From Leptolyngbya sp. 'hensonii' (GTDB lineage: Bacteria > Cyanobacteriota > Cyanobacteriia > GCF-001939115), in assembly GCF_001939115.1 (NCBI RefSeq), contig NZ_MQTZ01000042.1, forward strand, positions 284,483-347,248: a stretch of DNA of 62,766 bases. The letters are read 5' to 3'. Shown here one piece after another: positions 41,675-51,172 of the stretch. The notes below the pieces were generated by a model, which saw only the letters and a program-made list of their open reading frames with translations, was not told the DNA's origin and ran no database searches. The translations under genes and the position numbers were made by a program. Positions within the stretch are counted from its first letter, which is position 1. Every line of letters starts with the position of its first letter.

Positions 41675-42406
41675 TCAGGAAACCAGACCAGCCCGGAGTG
41701 CCCGGACCGCCGCCTGGGTGCGATCGTCCGCACAGAGTTTACTCAGAATATTCCGCACATGGGTCTTCACTGTTCCCAGGGTGATATAAAGTTTTTCGGC
41801 GATCGCAGCATTACTGTGACCGGCCACAATCAATTCCAGGATCTCCAATTCTCGCTCTGTCAGGGGATAAGCTTCCAGGGTTTGTTCATATTCCGGGTCA
41901 ATGGCTGCGATCGCCACTGTTTTGGCAGTCCCTGCCAGATCAGAACTATGTTGCCGTACCTGATACAGCACGACACTGGCGATCGCAGGATCGACCCAGG
42001 AGTTACCCTCGTGGGTCGATTGGATCGCGTCTGATAGGCGATCAATGCTGATATCTTTCATGCAGTAGGAATCTGCGCCTGCTGCAAAAGCTGCCAGGAC
42101 AGCATCCTCTGAATCATGCATGGTCAGCACTAGAATCTTCGTTGCTGGGGGTTCACCAGAGCTGCCAATATCAGCCTCTGACTGATATTGTCTGAACTTT
42201 CGGGTCAGTTCAATGCCATCCATGTCAGGCAGGCCGATATCCACGATCGCAACATCAGGTTGGGCTGTTTGTAAGAGCTTCAGTCCCTGAAATCCATTTG
42301 CGGCTTCACCAATGACCTTAATCCCTTCTCGCTGTTGCAACGCTGTTCGTAAACCAATCCGAGCCAGGTCGTGATCTTCAATCAAAACGATGCGAATATC
42401 GCTCAT
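41675..42406 (-). CDS. NarL/FixJ-type response regulator
   Basis: From the ATG at 42406 the 243-residue product has a receiver with the phospho-acceptor Asp D56 (VAIVDIGLPDMDGI), the acidic pair near residues 10-13, LTMHD and MKD. A C-terminal LuxR-type HTH follows (TERELEILELIVAGHSNAAIAEKLYITLGTVKTHVRNILSKL). The receiver carries an insert of about 14 residues (QSEADIGSSGEPPA) before the fourth beta strand. The longer frame from 42442 would add 12 unrelated residues. No kinase gene is directly coupled: the nearest candidates are the receiver-kinase hybrids divergent at 42978. Confidence 0.9.
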   Translation of the reverse strand: MSDIRIVLIEDHDLARIGLRTALQQREGIKVIGEAANGFQGLKLLQTAQPDVAIVDIGLPDMDGIELTRKFRQYQSEADIGSSGEPPATKILVLTMHDSEDAVLAAFAAGADSYCMKDISIDRLSDAIQSTHEGNSWVDPAIASVVLYQVRQHSSDLAGTAKTVAIAAIDPEYEQTLEAYPLTERELEILELIVAGHSNAAIAEKLYITLGTVKTHVRNILSKLCADDRTQAAVRALRAGLVS

Positions 42407-42977
42407 AGCGTTTTTAAGGTGAGACAGCCAATCTAGAAGCATTATGCAAGACCCTGATCCAGATCGCGTCTATCAATAGAAGGGTAGGGTGGCTCTATCC
42501 AACGAATGATAAAAAGAGGTTGAACCTGGGCAAAATCCTTCCTTGCGCAGGATAGGTCTGATGTCTATATATTCTCATTTCTCCGGTCAAAAGATAAGCA
42601 GTTGCAAAACTAAGATGAATCTGATGGATGAGGGGGCGATACCTGAACCATTTTTAACAGTTGAGGGCTCAAATCCTCTGCCTGACGGTTGAGTGCAGGT
42701 AAAACGGGAAGGACTACAATCTTGGTGGATATTACGGGCCACTGGCTAACCATCCTATACAGCCATAGAGTCGGTACTGCTGCTGTGCCACACCCCTAAC
42801 TTGTAGTTAATCTCAGAATTATCATCAACGCCGGGTTGAAGTGCATTCCTTAAAGGGGTCGGGATATCTGGTCCGCCGCTTTGATCTGTTTGAATGTGGC
42901 TGAACTGAGCCCAGCTCTGGAGCAGGATGGATGCTGTTTGAAATGCCTGATCAATAAGTCTTTATTCACTAAGCGGT
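42407..42977. other. 571-bp divergent spacer, no gene recognised
   Basis: The spacer lies between the NarL-type regulator (minus) and the receiver-kinase hybrid (plus) and must hold both promoters. No long repeat, hairpin or coding segment stood out. The ATG of the hybrid gene at 42978 is not preceded by a strong Shine-Dalgarno. Confidence 0.5.
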
Positions 42978-44255
42978 ATGATGAACGGGAGCCTGAACAT
43001 TCTGATTGTTGACGACAATGCGGCCGATCGTAGGGCGTTGCATCACGGGTTTATCCAGGCAGAAATCCAGGTAACAGTGTATGAGGCAGAAGATTTTGAA
43101 ACCGCGATCGTGCTGTTGCAGCAATATCCCTTCGATGGCATCTTCCTCAGCGATCGGTTTCCGGAACATGACGGGTTAGCTCTGGTCAACAATATTCGGC
43201 ATTGGGGCTGCCAGGTGCCTCTGGTCATCCTGATGACGGAGGATAAGGCCCAGATGGGGGCCAAGGGGATGGGAGTAGAGGCTGTAGAGTTTCTGCCCAG
43301 GTCGGGAATTTCCCCTCAAAGGCTGGCTCAGACCCTGCGGAGTGCGATTCGGATCTATCAGGCAGAACATCAGGCTGATCTGGCGACTCAGCAATTGCGG
43401 GAAAGTAATGAGTTGCTCAGGCGCAAGGATCAGGAACTGGAGGAACAACGACAACAAATCTTCCTGCAACATCTAAAACTCCTGGAAGTGTCCTGGCTTA
43501 AATCTCAGTTCCTGGCTACCCTTTCCCATGAAATTCGGACGCCCCTCCATGCCATGATTGGTTTTTCTCAGGTGTTGTTGCGTCCGGGCAAAGAGACCTT
43601 GTCTCCCCAACAGCGCAGTATGCTCGGGCGCATTTTGAGTAACGGGAAGCAATTGCTGGAAATGCTCAACAATATTCTGGACTTCTCCAAAATGGAGGCC
43701 GGTTGGTTGGAGATCAAACCCCAACCTTTTAACGTGATCCAGGTCGTCCACAGGACTATCTCTGGGTTGCGATCGCTGGCGGTGCGGAAAAATCTGGATC
43801 TGCGACTCAAGATTCAAGTGCAAAATCCCCAGATTACCAATGACCCCAATCGACTGCGTCAGGTGCTGGAAAATCTCCTTTCCAATGCCATCAAGTTCAC
43901 CGATGCTGGTTGGGTCTCGATTGAAATTGCAGAGTTTGCACCTGAGTGGATTGCCATTACCATCCGGGATACGGGGATTGGCATTGCCCCTTCCCATCTC
44001 CAGCAAATCTTTGAGCCATTCCGGCAGGCTGATCAGACCATCACCCGTCGGTATGCCGGGGCTGGTTTAGGGTTGGCTGTGAGTGATGCGTTGACTCAAA
44101 TGATGCAGGGCAGGATTACAGTGGAAAGTGAGTTAGGTCAGGGCTCAGCTTTTCGCATAGAGTTACCCCGCCAGATTGTCCCCCTGGCGGATGGAGGCTC
44201 TGCAACCCGAGCACCCTTAAGTGTGCGTTCCAATCCTGAATACGGTTCATCATGA
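42978..44255 (+). CDS. Receiver-histidine kinase hybrid with non-canonical receiver
   Basis: The 425-residue product has an N-terminal receiver (about 6-128), a coiled coil (about 130-172), and a kinase core with phospho-accepting H184 (ATLSHEIRTPLHAMIGF). The ATPase motifs are intact (DPNRLRQVLENLLSNAIKFT, RDTGIGI, RYAGAGLGLAVSDA). In the receiver the acid pair (D12, D13) is present, but the acceptor strand reads GIFLSDRFPEHDG. Aligned on the Pro-Glu, the normal Asp position is S58 with D59 one residue later, and the usual Lys is R108 (EFLPRSG). It may be a phosphorylation-independent or differently signalling input to the kinase. The downstream hybrid starts 17 bp after its stop, so they probably form an operon. 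Confidence 0.88.
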   Translation: MMNGSLNILIVDDNAADRRALHHGFIQAEIQVTVYEAEDFETAIVLLQQYPFDGIFLSDRFPEHDGLALVNNIRHWGCQVPLVILMTEDKAQMGAKGMGVEAVEFLPRSGISPQRLAQTLRSAIRIYQAEHQADLATQQLRESNELLRRKDQELEEQRQQIFLQHLKLLEVSWLKSQFLATLSHEIRTPLHAMIGFSQVLLRPGKETLSPQQRSMLGRILSNGKQLLEMLNNILDFSKMEAGWLEIKPQPFNVIQVVHRTISGLRSLAVRKNLDLRLKIQVQNPQITNDPNRLRQVLENLLSNAIKFTDAGWVSIEIAEFAPEWIAITIRDTGIGIAPSHLQQIFEPFRQADQTITRRYAGAGLGLAVSDALTQMMQGRITVESELGQGSAFRIELPRQIVPLADGGSATRAPLSVRSNPEYGSS

Positions 44256-44271: not shown

Positions 44272-45456
44272 ATGAGTGAAGCTACGGCTAGAAGCAGTTT
44301 TATCCCCTCAACAGTCCCTTCGATCGATCGGGTTCTGGCCGTAGATGACACAGAAGATAATCTGGTTTTGCTGGAAACGATTCTGGCTGATGAGGGCTAC
44401 GAAATTTCCCTGGCCAGGGATGGGTTAACAGCGCTGGCTTTGGTAGAACCGTTGACCCCAGATCTGATTCTGTTGGATGTGATGATGCCCGAAATGGATG
44501 GGTATGAAGTCACCCGCCGCATTCGCAAGAACCTCAAGTTGCCGTACATTCCCATTTTGCTGATTACGGCCCATGACCAGTCCAGTGTGGTCTATGGGTT
44601 GGATGCTGGTGCCGACGATTTTATCCGCAAACCTTTTGATACGGATGAGTTGCTGGCCCGGGTCCGATCGCTGCTGCGGCTGAAACACAGCATCGATGAA
44701 CGGGAAGCCATGGTTCGTCAACGGGAAGACTTTGTATCCCGCTTGACCCATGATCTTCGAACTCCCCTGGTGGCTGCCGATCGGATGCTGACCCTGGTGC
44801 AACAGGAGATCTTTGGCCCTGTTTCAGCCGAGATGCGGGAAACCCTGGCTGTTTTGATGCGTAGTAACCAGAATTTATTGCAAATCGTCAATACCCTGTT
44901 GGAGGTCTACCGTTACGAATCCGGGTATAAAGCGCTGACCTTCTCTCCCTGCAATTTGTGGGAACTGATCCAGGAAGTGATCCAGGAACTGAGCCCGCTG
45001 GCGCAGGAGAAGGGGTTGACCCTGGGTGTGACGCTGCAATCGGGAACGGAGACTCCAAAGGGAAACAATAAAGGCCAGGAGCAAAACAATATCGTTACGG
45101 GCGATCGACTAGAATTACGACGGGTTTTGACGAATCTCATTGGTAATGCCATCAAGTTTACCGATCGGGGCCAGATCCAGGTCCGTCTGATGGCTCCAAT
45201 CCGTCAGGCGGCTTCAACCAGCCAGCCCATGGTGACGCTGGAGATTGCGGATACAGGCGCTGGTATTCCCAAAGAGGATCAGGAGATTTTGTTCGAGCGG
45301 TTTCGTCAGGGCAAGGATCGGCGATCGGGCAGTGGTCTGGGGCTGTATCTCTCACGGCGAATTGTAGAGGCCCATCAGGGCACAATCAGTGTTACCTCCG
45401 AACTGGGGCAGGGAAGCACCTTTAAGGTCTGCCTGCCAGTAGGTCCACTCGGATAA
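44272..45456 (+). CDS. Receiver-histidine kinase hybrid (second of tandem pair)
   Basis: The ATG at 44272 is preceded by aaaggggtgaat, a good ribosome-binding site, and gives 394 residues. The earlier start would overlap the previous gene. The receiver (about 19-137) is canonical: DD at 25-26, D69 (LILLDVMMPEMDGY), and K120 (FIRKPFD). It is followed by a short coiled coil and a kinase core with H160 (SRLTHDLRTPLVAADRM), which is DHp type with D following H, and intact ATPase motifs (ELRRVLTNLIGNAIKFTDRGQ, DTGAGIP, GSGLGLYLSRR). Together with the preceding hybrid it could form a relay in which the two receivers gate two kinases. Confidence 0.92.
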   Translation: MSEATARSSFIPSTVPSIDRVLAVDDTEDNLVLLETILADEGYEISLARDGLTALALVEPLTPDLILLDVMMPEMDGYEVTRRIRKNLKLPYIPILLITAHDQSSVVYGLDAGADDFIRKPFDTDELLARVRSLLRLKHSIDEREAMVRQREDFVSRLTHDLRTPLVAADRMLTLVQQEIFGPVSAEMRETLAVLMRSNQNLLQIVNTLLEVYRYESGYKALTFSPCNLWELIQEVIQELSPLAQEKGLTLGVTLQSGTETPKGNNKGQEQNNIVTGDRLELRRVLTNLIGNAIKFTDRGQIQVRLMAPIRQAASTSQPMVTLEIADTGAGIPKEDQEILFERFRQGKDRRSGSGLGLYLSRRIVEAHQGTISVTSELGQGSTFKVCLPVGPLG

Positions 45457-45500: not shown

Positions 45501-45890
45501 TTAATCCCATCCCAGGGCTATTTTGATCTGCTCCACCAGGGTCATCGGATCAAACGGCTTGGCAATGAAGAATTGCATGCCTAATTCGTGAAACCGCTGT
45601 CGATCGCTGGCCTGGACCTTGGCGGTCAGCAAAATCACCGGGATGGCGCAGGTTCGTGGATTGGCCTGTAAATGTTTGAACACAACAGTGCCATCCATAT
45701 CAGGCAGCATGACATCTAGCAAAATGGCGTCGGGTTGTTCCCTCTCAGCCATCTTTAACCCCTCCTGACTCGAAGCAGCAGCAAGTACGTCCATCTGTCC
45801 CAGAGTTCGCAAGCAAGCCTCAGTCACTTCACGAATGTCATCTTCGTCATCAATAATCAGAATCCGTTTTCGGATTGAGGAGATGCTCAT
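45501..45890 (-). CDS. Single-domain CheY-like response regulator
   Basis: The 129-residue product is a receiver alone: DDEDD at 14-18, phospho-acceptor D59 (AILLDVMLPDMDG), the Thr in LLTAK and the Lys in FIAKPFDP. It has no output domain, so it works as a phosphotransfer intermediate or by binding a partner. It is convergent with the tandem hybrid pair and sits 83 bp in front of the multidomain kinase gene on the same strand (the kinase stop is at 45974 and this gene starts at 45890). It is thus probably the second gene of that unit. Confidence 0.92.
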   Translation of the reverse strand: MSISSIRKRILIIDDEDDIREVTEACLRTLGQMDVLAAASSQEGLKMAEREQPDAILLDVMLPDMDGTVVFKHLQANPRTCAIPVILLTAKVQASDRQRFHELGMQFFIAKPFDPMTLVEQIKIALGWD

Positions 45891-45973
45891 TTCATATCAA
45901 TTGGCATTGTGATTGCAACATAGACTTCGTAGCTGGAGGCGTTACAGGCAACTCACAGCCCAAAGAATGGGCA

Positions 45974-48085
45974 TTATCGGGTTAGAACTGTTGGTAAGGC
46001 CAAGAAAAAGGTACTGCCTTCTCCCAGGGTACTCTTTACCCACAGACTGCCAAGGTGCTGCTGCACGATCGTACGGCAAATCGCTAGCCCCAACCCGGTT
46101 CCTCCTCTCTGGCGAGAATCAGAGGCATCAACCTGTTGAAACCGGCCAAAGATGCTTTCCAACTTATCTGCAGGGATACCCCGACCCTGATCTTGTACGG
46201 TGAAGAGAACCGACTCCGACAAGAAAGGGGACATCGTGCGATCGGTCTGAGCATGGTACGGCTCCACCTTCACCCAGATAGTACTGCCAGGGGGCGAAAA
46301 TTTGATCGCGTTACTCAGTAAGTTGGTCAGTACCTGAATGATGCGATCGGGATCAGCCCAGAAAGTCAGAGGTTGAGAGGTGGCTGAGAGGGTCACTTCA
46401 GCCTTATCGGCCATGGCTTGCATCAGTTCTATAGATTGGGTAATCAGCTCAGCAGCATTGCAATTCTGCCGAACCAGATCCATCTGGCCTGATTCCAGGC
46501 GTTCTAGATCCAGAAAATCATTGATCAGGCGCACCAGTCGATCGGTATTACTGACGGCAATTTCCAGCATACGCTGGCCCATGGGCGGCAATTGCCCTAT
46601 GGCGCTGGTCAGCAACAACCCCAGGGAGCCTCGAATGGAGGTCAGGGGAGTCCGCAGTTCGTGACTGACAACGGAAATGAACTCATTCTTCATGCGCTCG
46701 ATCGCCTGCTGTTCACTGATATCTCTGGCGATGAGAGAAATGCCCATCATGCGACCTAGGGAATCTTTGAGGGGAGAAATAGTGAGAAAAACATCGATCA
46801 TCCGACCTATTTTTGTCTGATGCATCGATCGGCAACCATCGAACTGTTCCAGCAGTTGCTGTTCATCCAACGGAAATGGAGTCGGTTGGGCATCGGCAGG
46901 GTAAAGCAGGTGATACAGATTCTGCCCTTCGGCTTCAGCGGCAGTATAGCCGTACATCCGCTCAGCTCCAGGATTCCAGCTCAGGATCTGGCCCTCGATC
47001 GTGGTGCTGAGGATGGCATCATTGGAGGATTCGACAATTGCAGCCAATTGATGCAGGGATTCCTCAACTTGCCGACGTTGAATAAATTGCCCGATCTGGC
47101 TGCCAATGGCAGTCATAACTCCCAAGCGACCCCGATCAGCCGGCTGGGTCTGTTGACTGAAAAAGATGAGAATACCCAAGACCTTACTGCCTGCTCGCAC
47201 GGGCACCCCACAGGCGGCATGTAAGCCATCCTGAACTGCTGCCTGAGCCTGTAAGAAATCTGGAGCGGTGGCGACATCATCAATCCAGATGGATTGTGGA
47301 CTTTCCCACACCTGTCCTGGTAGCCCTATTCCCCGATGTAAGTGAGTGGCGGTTGTGGCGGCCCGGTAATTCGGAAATGTGTTCTCAGACCCATGCCAAT
47401 CACAGACCCAATCCAGGCGATCGGCATCCTGGTTGATTAACCACAGTTCCCCTAAACTCCAGTTCAGCCACTGACAAATCGTTTCTAGGATGCGGGAGGT
47501 CGCTTCATTTAGGGTTGCTGATTCTGCCAGCACCAGCGTGACTCCATGCTGAACCCCCATCAGCTTCCCGGCCTCAATCCGCTCTGCCATTTCGCTCTGC
47601 AGCCGAGCATTGGTTGCTGTGAGCTCTGCCGTTCGCTGTTGCACCTGGATTTCCAATTCTTCATAGGCTTGCAGCAAGGCGGCTTCAGCCTGTCGTTTCT
47701 CTCGTCGAATCTGCGCTTCTCGTAATTCTCGCTCGATCGCTGGAGCCAGGCGAGCCAGATGCCCTTTCAAGAGATAGTCATGGGCCCCCGCCTTCATCAT
47801 GGCAATGGCGGTTTCTTCTCCGACCACCCCTGAAACGATGATGAAGGGCAAATCCAACCCTTGAGATTTCATCAACTGCAGAGCAGCTCCTGCACTAAAG
47901 TCGGGGAGGGAATAATCTGAAATAATCAGATCCCAGGATTGCTTCTCCAGTGCTACACTCATGGCTGCTGCTGTTTCAACCCGCTCCGCTGTCACAGCGT
48001 AACCAGCCCGTCGCAACTCGTGCAACAGAAGTATCATGTCATCCTCTACATCTTCGACAACCAGAACATGTAGTGGCGTAACCAT
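45974..48085 (-). CDS. Receiver-GAF-PAS hybrid histidine kinase
   Basis: From the ATG at 48085 the 703-residue product reads as receiver (about 4-122; D57 in ISDYSLPD, K107 in DYLLKG), coiled coil (about 125-175), GAF (about 180-335), PAS (about 345-458; NDAILSTTIEGQILSWNPGAERMYGY) and a kinase core with H475 (SVVSHELRTPLTSIRG). The ATPase motifs are intact (IIQVLTNLLSNAIKFS, QDQGRGI, GGTGLGLAICR). The GAF domain lacks an obvious bilin-binding Cys: the only Cys residues are in CQWLNW, VCDW and ACGVPV. The upstream Met at 48139 adds 18 residues before the receiver fold and is less likely. The lone receiver at 45501 is the likely downstream partner. Confidence 0.92.
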   Translation of the reverse strand: MVTPLHVLVVEDVEDDMILLLHELRRAGYAVTAERVETAAAMSVALEKQSWDLIISDYSLPDFSAGAALQLMKSQGLDLPFIIVSGVVGEETAIAMMKAGAHDYLLKGHLARLAPAIERELREAQIRREKRQAEAALLQAYEELEIQVQQRTAELTATNARLQSEMAERIEAGKLMGVQHGVTLVLAESATLNEATSRILETICQWLNWSLGELWLINQDADRLDWVCDWHGSENTFPNYRAATTATHLHRGIGLPGQVWESPQSIWIDDVATAPDFLQAQAAVQDGLHAACGVPVRAGSKVLGILIFFSQQTQPADRGRLGVMTAIGSQIGQFIQRRQVEESLHQLAAIVESSNDAILSTTIEGQILSWNPGAERMYGYTAAEAEGQNLYHLLYPADAQPTPFPLDEQQLLEQFDGCRSMHQTKIGRMIDVFLTISPLKDSLGRMMGISLIARDISEQQAIERMKNEFISVVSHELRTPLTSIRGSLGLLLTSAIGQLPPMGQRMLEIAVSNTDRLVRLINDFLDLERLESGQMDLVRQNCNAAELITQSIELMQAMADKAEVTLSATSQPLTFWADPDRIIQVLTNLLSNAIKFSPPGSTIWVKVEPYHAQTDRTMSPFLSESVLFTVQDQGRGIPADKLESIFGRFQQVDASDSRQRGGTGLGLAICRTIVQQHLGSLWVKSTLGEGSTFFLALPTVLTR

Positions 48086-48414
48086 ATGTTTAGCCTCATC
48101 AGAAAGATGGCCAGTACAGATATCTGGAGTAGTTTGCAAAAGAATTCACTTGTGAGCTACTCATTTAAGCTGGAACCCTGGGATTTGAGGAGGAGCCAAG
48201 CAGTCCTACTCTTGACGGTTGGCTTCTGACTTCCCTGCTGATATCGCTGCCTTGCATGAAATTAAGCGAATAGCACTGTTTTGGCCTCAACGTTAAAGTT
48301 ACAACGAGAAAGAGAAAATCCTGTGAACAAAGTCTACAATTTGTTTCTATCAAGATGGTTTGACAGTAGGAAATTGCTGTAAGTTTTGAATGGACAGTCC
48401 AGGTTATTCCCGTC
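48086..48414. other. 329-bp divergent spacer before fecR-like gene
   Basis: The space holds the promoters of the multidomain kinase (minus) and the FecR/CHASE2 pair (plus). It is AT-rich from about 48240. I see no repeat, strong hairpin or coding segment in it. Confidence 0.5.
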
Positions 48415-49251
48415 GTGCATCTAAGAGCTTTCACAATTGCTACCCTCCTTATCTTACTGGGGCTATCCCAAAGTGCCACGGTTAATCCCCTGCCCGTTCG
48501 GGTCGATCGCTGGTTAGCGGTACAACAGCTTTCTGGGGCTGTGGCCTACTATCGGAAGGGGAAGAAAGCTCAAACAGCTCGAATTGGCGATCGCCTAGAG
48601 CTGGTAGGAGATGGAATTAAAACTGCTCAGAGTTCTGGTGCCATGTTGCAGGTGGATACTAACATTGGCCAGGTTCTGGTGTTAGAGAATACGGCCCTAA
48701 CACTCACGAAAGTGGGGCGAGCCCCTGATAACGGTCGGATTACGTACTTACAGGTAGACCAGGGACAGGTCCGGCTGAAATTGCGTCGCTTTACCCATCG
48801 GGGCTCCAAGCTAGAAATCCAGACTCCCGCTGGAATCAGTGGGGTGCGGGGAACAGAGTTTGGTCTGATTGTTCAACCTCAGGGTAAGACCAGCATTGCA
48901 ACCCTGACGGGAAGTGTCCTCACCACAGCGCGGGGCCAGTCTATTCCCGTCAATGCGGGTTCTCAGAACTTCACGATTCCTGGAGAACCCCCGACTCCTT
49001 CTGTACCTTTGCGAGAGGACACCTCTCTGAGAAGTCGATTTCTCTTCATGATTGAAGGGGGAGTCCGGAAAGTTCGCCTGGTCGGTCAGGTTGATCCGGT
49101 AAATGCAGTCATTGTGGCTGGAGTGCCCACGGCAACCGATCGCAACGGTCAGTTCAGCGCCGTGTTTTTGGTTCCGTCCAAACTTCGCATTGACGTTATT
49201 GTGATCACTCCCTTAGGGAAACGGCAGGTTCATGAACTTAGCATTCCGTGA
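48415..49251 (+). CDS. FecR-domain periplasmic protein
   Basis: The frame starts with GTG and has a signal peptide (AFTIATLLILLGLSQSATV). The FecR domain follows (about 35-185): AVAYYRKGKKAQTARIGDRLELVGDGIKTAQSSGAMLQVD, TALTLTKVG, then LEIQTPAGISGVRGTEFGL and TLTGSVLTT. FecR domains outside iron siderophore systems act as periplasmic ligand or cell-wall sensing modules. A second domain of about 80 residues (RFLFMIEGGVRKVRLVGQVDP) ends in a beta-rich part. The stop overlaps the CHASE2 kinase start by 20 bp, so the two are translationally coupled and the protein probably modulates that sensor. Confidence 0.85.
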   Translation: MHLRAFTIATLLILLGLSQSATVNPLPVRVDRWLAVQQLSGAVAYYRKGKKAQTARIGDRLELVGDGIKTAQSSGAMLQVDTNIGQVLVLENTALTLTKVGRAPDNGRITYLQVDQGQVRLKLRRFTHRGSKLEIQTPAGISGVRGTEFGLIVQPQGKTSIATLTGSVLTTARGQSIPVNAGSQNFTIPGEPPTPSVPLREDTSLRSRFLFMIEGGVRKVRLVGQVDPVNAVIVAGVPTATDRNGQFSAVFLVPSKLRIDVIVITPLGKRQVHELSIP

Positions 49252-51172
49252 ACTGAAGTGGCAGTTATTGCCGGGTGTATTGGCTGCGTTGGCGATCGCC
49301 ATCCTGCTCTACCTGCAGATGTTTCAACCTCTGGAGCAAGCTGCTTATGGAACCCTGTTTCGTCTGCGGGGAGCCCTACCCTGGGATCAACGGGTGGTGG
49401 TGGTGGCGATCGATGATGCCAGTGTCAAGCAACTGGGGCGTTTTCCCTGGCCTCGACAGCGTTATGTCGAATTGATGAGCCTGTTAACCCGTCATCAGGC
49501 CAGTATCGTGGCCTTTGATTTGCTTTGGTCTGAAAATAGTCCTGACGATGGGGAATTGGCCCAGTCCCTGAATCATCATGGTGGGGTGGTTCTGGCTCAA
49601 GCCTGGGATAACACCGGTCTGCCCCTGTTGCCGGTTCCAGAGCTACATAATGCGGCCATTTCAACGGGGCACATTATGGAACGGGAAGATGCTGACGGCC
49701 AAACCCGGCAAGTGGCGTTGCAGATTCAGGATGCACCAGCATTGGGAATTGCTGTTCTGGAGGCCTATGGCTTGGTTCGAGAGCCGATCTCCTTACCTCC
49801 GGTAGAGCGGTTTCTCTGGATCAACTGGCCCGGTCCCATCCGTCAGTTGCAGCAGTACTCTTTCAAAGATGTCCTCCAGAATCGCATTCCACCCGAGCGC
49901 TTGCGCCACAAAATTGTCCTGGTTGGGGTAACGGCCCTTGGCTTTGATACCCTCCTGACCCCCTTTGATCAGCAACCCCTGGCCAGCGGGGTGCATCTTC
50001 AGGCAGCGGTGTTGACCAATCTGTTGCATGGCAATGGGTTGCATCCTGTGTCACCCAGGTGGCTGGGCTTGGTGTTGCTGCTGGGGGGACCTGGCTTAAG
50101 CGTGCTTCTGACCCGTTGGCCGCTCAAGCAGCAGTTGTTCATTAGCGTGGGCCTCCTGGTTGGTTGGGGCCTATTGAGCTTAGGGTTATTTCGCTTCAAC
50201 TTCTGGATTCCAGTTGCGTCTCCGATGGCCCTGATTCTGGTTACATCCGGTTCCGTGTTTTTGCATGAACGCATTCGAGTGAACCGATTGTTGCATCGGC
50301 AGGTCCGTCAACTCTGGCAGGCCTACCTGCAGAAAGGAACATTCCAAATTATTACGCCAGATGCCACGATCGTGGCCCGCAATCAACCGGCAGCTCTCCA
50401 GCCTGCAACCCAACTGGCACTTCTGGCAGAACAGTTTGGCTACCTCAGCCAGCAATTAGCGGAGCGCACCCAGCAACTGGAAATTGTGAATAAGGAACTG
50501 GAAGCGTTCAGCTATGCCGTTTCCCACGATCTTCGGGCTCCCTTGCGACGGATTGATGGGTTTAGCCAGATTTTGTTAGAGGAATATGCTGAGCAACTGG
50601 ATGGGACAGGCCAGGATTATTTGCAACGCATCCAGGCTTCTAGTGGTCGGATGGGAGAACTGATTGAGGATCTTTTAACGTTATCTCGCATCACCCGGAG
50701 TCAGCTTCATCGCACAACCTTTAACCTGAGTACCCTGGCCCAGGGAATTGCAACGGAATTACAGCAAACCCAGCCTGATCGATCGGGTGAATTTATCATT
50801 GCCCCTAACCTGCTGGTGAATGGGGATGTCAGACTCCTGAAAGTGGCCCTGGAGAATTTGCTCTCTAATGCCTGGAAGTACACCAGTAAATGTGACCAGG
50901 CCCGGATTGAATTAGGATTGTTACCCAGTGAACTCGGTGAAAAAACAAAAACTCCGATTTATTTTGTCCGTGACAATGGCGCAGGTTTTAATATGAGCTA
51001 CGCTGATAAGCTGTTTGTGGCATTCCAACGTCTGCATACAACAGAAGAGTTTCCTGGGACTGGGGTGGGCTTAACCACAGCTCAGCGAATTATTCACCGT
51101 CATGGGGGAAAAATTTGGGCGGAAGGGGTGGTTGACCAAGGCGCAACGTTTTACTTTACCCTGCAGGTGTAG
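49232..51172 (+). CDS. CHASE2-domain sensor histidine kinase
   Basis: The 646-residue product has an N-terminal span (about 11-29), an extracytoplasmic CHASE2 domain (about 30-270; VVVVAIDDASVKQLGRFPWPR, VAFDLLW, FKDVLQNRIPPERLRHKIVLVGVTALG), three closely spaced spans (about 278-345), a coiled coil and a phytochrome-type kinase core. The phospho-accepting His is H432 (AFSYAVSHDLRAPLRRIDGF). The ATPase motifs are present (ALENLLSNAWKYTS, RDNGAGFNM, GTGVGLTTAQRI). CHASE2 with FecR or adenylate cyclase is a recurring cyanobacterial theme. No response regulator follows on the plus strand, so the kinase must act on a regulator elsewhere, possibly those of the island upstream. Confidence 0.92.
   Translation: MNLAFRELKWQLLPGVLAALAIAILLYLQMFQPLEQAAYGTLFRLRGALPWDQRVVVVAIDDASVKQLGRFPWPRQRYVELMSLLTRHQASIVAFDLLWSENSPDDGELAQSLNHHGGVVLAQAWDNTGLPLLPVPELHNAAISTGHIMEREDADGQTRQVALQIQDAPALGIAVLEAYGLVREPISLPPVERFLWINWPGPIRQLQQYSFKDVLQNRIPPERLRHKIVLVGVTALGFDTLLTPFDQQPLASGVHLQAAVLTNLLHGNGLHPVSPRWLGLVLLLGGPGLSVLLTRWPLKQQLFISVGLLVGWGLLSLGLFRFNFWIPVASPMALILVTSGSVFLHERIRVNRLLHRQVRQLWQAYLQKGTFQIITPDATIVARNQPAALQPATQLALLAEQFGYLSQQLAERTQQLEIVNKELEAFSYAVSHDLRAPLRRIDGFSQILLEEYAEQLDGTGQDYLQRIQASSGRMGELIEDLLTLSRITRSQLHRTTFNLSTLAQGIATELQQTQPDRSGEFIIAPNLLVNGDVRLLKVALENLLSNAWKYTSKCDQARIELGLLPSELGEKTKTPIYFVRDNGAGFNMSYADKLFVAFQRLHTTEEFPGTGVGLTTAQRIIHRHGGKIWAEGVVDQGATFYFTLQV

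Follow-up and report, generated by a model that had tools for sequence, protein, structure and literature searches.

In the cyanobacterium Leptolyngbya sp. 'hensonii', a kinase gene at positions 42978-44255 (+) of the window, as we call the whole 62,766-nucleotide stretch of DNA analysed here, encodes an N-terminal receiver that, judged by its sequence, is a derived pseudo-receiver within a family of Rec-controlled kinases. The acceptor Asp, the conserved Thr and the conserved Lys of this receiver are replaced, the boxes of the kinase are intact, helices alpha5 and alphaS are kept, the gene order is conserved, and the receiver of the partner kinase is canonical. The gene is one open frame of 425 amino acids (q in the following) with the layout REC, signalling helix, HisKA and HATPase; Pfam supports it, and homologues of like length and layout occur in many genomes. 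We propose, with a confidence somewhat above even, that q is a kinase of the LvrB layout whose receiver serves as a phosphorylation-independent dimer clamp, with phosphate input arriving via a second kinase, dnHK, and a NarL-type regulator as the likely output.

Residues and fold of the q receiver

The receiver (residues 8-118; 42999-43331, +) is recognized as PF00072 (Response_reg) with 45.6 bits, above the cut-off of 30.2, and in the alignment with relatives it retains the metal-binding acid pair D12 D13. The acceptor position is taken by S58, followed by D59 at D+1 (codons AGC GAT; 43149-43154, +), the conserved Thr position by M86, followed by T87 (ATG ACG; 43233-43238, +), and the conserved Lys position by R108 (AGG; 43299-43301, +), which is the pattern of an aspartate-less receiver. 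The alignment is ungapped at S58 (AGC at 43149-43151). A sequencing read error as the source of this residue was considered and rejected as unlikely, since no Asp codon can be reached from AGC by fewer than two base changes and the frame is uninterrupted.

Since none of the D, T and K positions retains its residue, the original prediction of a pseudo-receiver that has left the normal Asp chemistry appears well founded. Its residue assignments (S58 at the acceptor Asp with D59 adjacent, R108 at the Lys) were borne out by the alignment, and its description of the kinase as intact holds as well: Pfam finds HisKA (residues 175-242; 43500-43703, +; H184 at 43527-43529) and HATPase_c (residues 288-399; 43839-44174, +), and the motifs TLSHEIRTPL (with H184), SNAIKFTD, RDTGIGI and GAGLGLA are all present, so that q may be expected to be an active kinase. 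The accompanying statement that the receiver is otherwise intact proved wrong, given M86 in place of the conserved Thr and the loss of every conserved position in the beta4-alpha4/alpha4 region described below.

Phosphorylation of the q receiver might still be imagined, either at D59 or, through another kinase, at S58, because D59 adjoins the site and D12 and D13 are kept; we regard this as very improbable. Four relatives (L067, L070, L093 and L165) have 'LDD', an Asp at the acceptor site followed by a second one at D+1, and in the AlphaFold model of q strand beta3 comprises residues 54-58 and thus ends at the acceptor position. Both observations disfavour D59 as a substitute acceptor, and the additional replacement of Thr and Lys argues against phosphorylation in general. 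As far as alignment and model indicate, D59 is probably an ordinary D+1 residue and not a shifted acceptor.

At the nucleotide level, the codons of S58, D59 and R60 (AGC GAT CGG, 43149-43157) contain GCGATCG (43150-43156, +), which is the HIP1 palindrome short of one of its eight bases. HIP1 is a marker of cyanobacteria, and its 34 copies in the window (GCGATCGC), compared to 1.2 expected from base composition, point to a source in that group; GCGATCG has 73 copies compared to about 4.7. It is a speculation of ours that the Ser-Asp pair was created by a HIP1-type sequence change.

Measured against the positions conserved in Asp-keeping relatives, beta1 (5/5), alpha3 (4/4) and alpha5 (7/7) are fully kept in q, and the signalling helix alphaS (16/19; residues 127-172; 43356-43493, +), DHp (41/47) and CA (49/53) are mostly kept. 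Erosion was found in alpha1 (2/8), beta3 (3/5), beta4 (2/4), beta5 (2/5) and in the beta4-alpha4 loop together with alpha4 (residues 87-101; 43236-43280, +), where none of the 11 family-conserved positions remains. This makes the window protein atypical of Asp-less receivers, since the others keep alpha4 fairly well (mean 0.79). An AlphaFold model of q residues 1-165, built with 68 sequences, reached a mean pLDDT of 85.3; it contains a long helix over residues 113-164, and alpha4 is reduced to short helical turns at 88-91 and 95-97, with a pLDDT of 60 for the block 91-100. For the canonical homologue L056, the same 68 sequences yielded a helix at 91-100 (mean pLDDT 92.7). The underlying alignments comprised 67 of 74 selected relatives, seven rows with a dnHK kinase being excluded. 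In a structure search with the model of REC and helix, 6oaq came first by both Foldseek E-value and VIA-align Z (18.3), ordinary receivers such as 9of5 (Z 17.7) tied with it, and LvrB (Z 16.4) ranked 43rd, so that the search backs the receiver fold and not the Rec-kinase kind specifically.

The clustering of changes in the pocket and the beta4-alpha4 region, and also in alpha1, would suit a re-purposed sensor in which a small molecule or a partner protein docks at the altered pocket and alpha4 region and thereby gates the kinase, as in CikA and ShkA. Ligand- or partner-binding pseudo-receivers are known in kinases, as stated in the part of PMC12632262 available to us. We nevertheless consider such a sensor improbable, given that the Asp-less homologues have no new site residue in common (N, G, A or S, with varying T and K states), and that repeated separate losses fit a loss of function better than the gain of one ligand.

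Acceptor-site states and selection among the relatives

A search with q against its own genome returned 165 matching places, and kinase similarity alone was therefore left out of orthologue calling. A scan of genome contigs with the single protein matched two loci in the kinase part alone; the genome search was used instead. Receiver matches at E<=1e-15 were found in 25 of 77 genomes of the 'relatives' set and a match at E<=1e-28 in 70 of 388 class members, both counts including the window genome, and the full protein at E<=1e-85 matched 179 of the 192 members of family f32. The genomes compared all belong to orders other than that of the window. From f32, 60 were picked by genus among the matches listed, many of them from genus g107 and with the residues unseen at picking, and 30 loci supplied automatically were taken in as well. 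Removal of duplicates reduced 171 passing frames to 145 aligned rows; the first tree (137 rows) was built without eight rows whose H-box is of the dnHK type, and the second (134 rows) also without three long-branch rows.

L191 and L190, like the copies interrupted by in-frame stops, came to light separately from the sampled rows. In L191 (genome G244) the acid pair is gone and Glu stands at the acceptor site, as read by eye, with a dnHK relative still downstream. Broken copies of q occur in f32, with an in-frame stop in G380 (TGA) and G405 (TAA) and a frame change in G540 (L156, L158, L190).

At the acceptor site, the 137 aligned rows carry D in 122, N in nine, G in four, S in one and A in one; 15 rows are thus Asp-less in this chosen, non-random sample, whose counts are not frequencies. 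Thr/Ser is gone in six rows, Lys is replaced by Arg in five, and any of the five catalytic positions is changed in 23. The window protein is the only row without D, T and K together. The comparison of orthologues for Ser or Asp, which had been suggested as a check, shows Asp as the usual state among the sampled rows, Ser in the window row alone, and a loss that recurs across the family. Orthologues with a canonical Asp (122/137) and Lys (132/137), which the original prediction had counted as grounds against itself, do exist; their prevalence points to a derived state of the window protein and not to a normal receiver. Kinase-only trees require a minimum of 11 changes between the Asp and no-Asp states with FastTree (137 rows) and of 12 with an IQ-TREE quick search (134 rows), counts that cannot separate loss from regain and that stem from trees with many weak inner branches (45/134 and 42/131 open). 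Both states are present within the single genus g107.

Selection was assessed by omega as Nei-Gojobori pairwise medians, the pairs being non-independent. For the q receiver, omega was 0.135 among Asp-keepers outside g107, and inside g107 it was 0.346 for Asp-keepers, 0.382 for mixed pairs and 0.457 for 28 Asp-less pairs. The q kinase ranged from 0.098 to 0.168, the dnHK receiver had 0.058 outside g107 and 0.110 within it, and the dnHK kinase 0.13. Given that its omega is raised but below 1, the q receiver is relaxed yet under purifying selection. In g107, the Asp-keepers already show this relaxation, and the ratio dN(REC)/dN(kinase) of the Asp-less pairs in this genus (1.81) is no higher than that of the Asp-keeping pairs (2.16).

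The window protein shares a receiver identity of 0.42 with L056, its nearest relative by kinase, at a kinase identity of 0.64. This value is below all 45 Asp-keeping pairs outside f32 at similar kinase identity, which in the kinase band 0.60-0.65 have a mean receiver identity of 0.62 (s.d. 0.04). Within f32, Asp-keeping pairs of that band reach down to 0.40 (mean 0.66, 210 pairs), and the distance of the window receiver is rare but not unique. The dnHK receiver of the window shows the opposite pattern and is conserved relative to its kinase, with identities of 0.75-0.79 at kinase identities of 0.61-0.64 to seven of the eight nearest rows; the remaining row is a chimera.

The main rival to the clamp is the slow decay of an unused domain, in which the receiver is unneeded, drifts under weak selection, folds for the sake of dimer solubility and carries no signal. 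The receiver omega of 0.35-0.46 in g107, found even where Asp is kept, agrees with it, as do the erased alpha4 of the window protein, the extreme erosion in L191 next to a remaining dnHK, and the broken copies in G380, G405 and G540. However, omega is well below 1, and beta1, alpha3 and alpha5 of the window protein are fully kept. Every f32 match begins at query residue 2-5 and none is without the receiver, among the matches listed and at a cut-off of 1e-85 that favours full-length matches. Furthermore, the spacing from the Lys site to the His is 76 residues in 133 of the 137 rows and in 15/15 Asp-less rows (the remaining four rows have 69, 83 and twice 77). Weighing both sides, we consider plain decay unlikely, though by no means negligible.

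The partner kinase and the gene neighbourhood

Downstream of q lies dnHK (44272-45456, +), a second Rec-kinase identified by Pfam, with a canonical receiver. Among the 132 other homologues whose sequence reaches far enough, 122 have a dnHK relative on the same strand within 3 kb downstream, and four more are too short for a call; in L030 the dnHK relative became visible once a longer stretch was examined. Where both open frames lie on one stretch, q and then dnHK are adjacent in 112 of 114 pairs, with a median gap of 37 nt, an arrangement from which co-transcription may be expected. Near 10 of the 132 homologues dnHK is missing, so that q can also occur alone. Every Asp-less row, the window and the 14 others alike, is followed by dnHK, and Asp is kept in each of the 10 rows that lack dnHK, a suggestive pattern drawn from too few rows for significance.

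The dnHK receivers keep the acid pair, Asp and Lys in 115/115 cases, with Thr in 113 and Ser in two, the count being 120/120 before five chimeric rows were set aside. Divergently from q, a NarL/LuxR-type response regulator with REC and GerE (41675-42442, -) is encoded as the candidate output; matches to it with 57-72% identity lie within the fetched stretch of 21/40 loci, and the regulator keeps its Asp in 27/27. Eight rows, five of them verified by identity, combine a q-type receiver with a kinase bearing the dnHK H-box, and all eight keep the five residues. Because dnHK, the NarL-type regulator and these chimeras keep their residues, the Asp loss goes with the pairing of q receiver and q kinase and does not reflect a genome-wide decay.

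The chimeric Rec-kinases (L026, L017, L025, L054 and L061:13718-14899, and by H-box alone L094, L086 and L088) join a q-type receiver to a dnHK-type kinase with the catalytic residues kept, as if neighbouring genes had swapped or fused parts. Just downstream of the pair, the opposite strand encodes a lone receiver of 129 aa and a 721-aa REC-GAF-PAS kinase (45501-48139, -), which makes the stretch dense in two-component genes. Positions 48415-51172 hold a putative FecR-like gene followed by a putative CHASE2-like sensor kinase, both named by reading the sequence, and frames resembling the latter share the fetched stretch with q in several loci.

In six related loci, q and dnHK are the sole kinase genes adjoining the regulator. 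The Anabaena alr3768 (orrA)/all3767-all3764 cluster, as described in the part of PMC12282138 available to us, was considered as a counterpart of the operon and rejected, since these six loci lack its four same-strand signalling genes. OrrA is a LuxR-family regulator according to the section seen of PMC13131328, and it matches the window regulator in class only. The portions consulted of PMC9927289, PMC12157317 and PMC9953108 contain nothing on the q-dnHK operon, and the literature searched, a collection short of most subscription papers, yielded neither an account of the operon nor one of the recurring Asp loss. Within that literature, the repeated loss of Asp from just one of the two receivers in a conserved pair of kinases, with none seen in the partner, appears to be new.

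Role of the receiver and comparison with known systems

In the clamp model, the q receiver would no longer be phosphorylated on Asp yet would still be folded, and it would be coupled to a working kinase through alpha5 and the unbroken, length-fixed signalling helix. From this folded and still coupled state we infer a dimer clamp free of phosphorylation that sets the resting state of the kinase. Phosphate input to the operon would enter at the canonical dnHK receiver, by analogy with the action of LvrA on the LvrB Rec; q probably phosphorylates the dnHK receiver, and the divergent NarL-type regulator is the likely output of the tandem. Several findings speak against the clamp: the erased alpha4 (0/11) and the relaxed selection fit simple decay too, the relaxation in g107 is shared by pairs that keep Asp, with no higher dN ratio in the Asp-less ones, and the face that corresponds to the alpha4-beta5 dimer contact of LvrB is the most altered part of q. 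Against the pairing of q with dnHK, it has to be considered that other kinases in the genome, with its 165 matching places, could be the real partners.

More tentatively, and with a confidence clearly short of even, we suggest that in tandem Rec-kinases the first receiver has repeatedly and independently been turned into a phosphate-free mechanical clamp, and that the second alone keeps the input role. If so, the family would represent a natural switch-to-clamp series, in which a pseudo-receiver must keep alpha5 and a lever of fixed phase but may lose the pocket and alpha4. Kinases with and without a phosphorylatable receiver share their gene context, even in one genus, and the partner receiver serves as an internal control. 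The effect of a pseudo-receiver on its kinase thereby becomes approachable by natural pairs, beyond artificial mutants alone.

Among the known systems, the entries 6oaq, 6oap and 6ob8 represent a dual-sensor histidine kinase, PPHK of cyanobacterial source, which shares with q an N-terminal REC followed by a signalling helix. The solved protein binds BeF3- (title of 6oaq) and senses light (titles of 6oap and 6ob8), whereas in q the acceptor Asp is missing and Pfam gives no photosensory domain. In CikA and ShkA, for which quinone, KaiB or c-di-GMP come into question as binding partners, the pseudo-receiver is placed C-terminal to other modules or between them; CikA consists of GAF, kinase and then a C-terminal PsR, and the circadian comparison also includes the C-terminal domain of KaiA. 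This circadian (CikA/KaiA) layout was not found in q, for which Pfam at E<=0.001 gives REC, HisKA and HATPase alone, in this order. Of the earlier interpretation, the pseudo-receiver on an intact kinase can thus be upheld on present evidence, and the analogy with circadian, quinone-binding domains finds no support. What q would have in common with the hybrid kinases CikA and ShkA is the control of a kinase by a pseudo-receiver, as described for them in the part of PMC12632262 available to us.

Pseudo-receivers account for about 6% of a representative bacterial receiver set (PMC12632262, in the section seen), and Ser for 15% of the Asp substitutions in aspartate-less receivers (PMC4395418, likewise in part). 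Like RitR and FrzS, q combines the receiver fold with the lack of an acceptor Asp; in contrast to them, its pseudo-receiver is the input domain of a kinase, in a family whose sampled members mostly keep Asp.

The closest comparison is LvrB of Leptospira (PDB 8vc9), the prototype of Rec-controlled kinases, which has an N-terminal REC, a long alphaS, HisKA and HATPase as in q and aligns to q in sequence over residues 12-397 (E 6.6e-8). According to the part of PMC13269768 available to us, the upstream kinase LvrA phosphorylates the LvrB Rec, this phosphorylation drives the formation of the alphaS coiled coil and frees the catalytic domains, and alphaS lengths in Rec-controlled kinases favour multiples of seven. 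LvrB has a Lys-to-His spacing of 55, based on the partial account of it and with the Lys placed at aromatic+3 (Y103+3) and the His at H161; the spacing of q is longer by 21 residues, and 76 and 55 have the same phase modulo 7. LvrB dimerises via its alpha4-beta5 face, the part most altered in the window protein, and it is switched by phosphorylation of D56, a residue absent from q (S58), in which Thr and Lys are replaced too. The N-terminal REC, the long alpha5-alphaS helix (113-164 in the model), the HisKA-HATPase order, the acceptor His and the ATP-binding boxes are those of a Rec-controlled kinase. By its sequence, q thus descends from and resembles the Rec-controlled kinases of the LvrB type but is no member by mechanism: as a domain, its receiver is an ordinary aspartate-less receiver, and as a protein, q is a derived Rec-controlled kinase.
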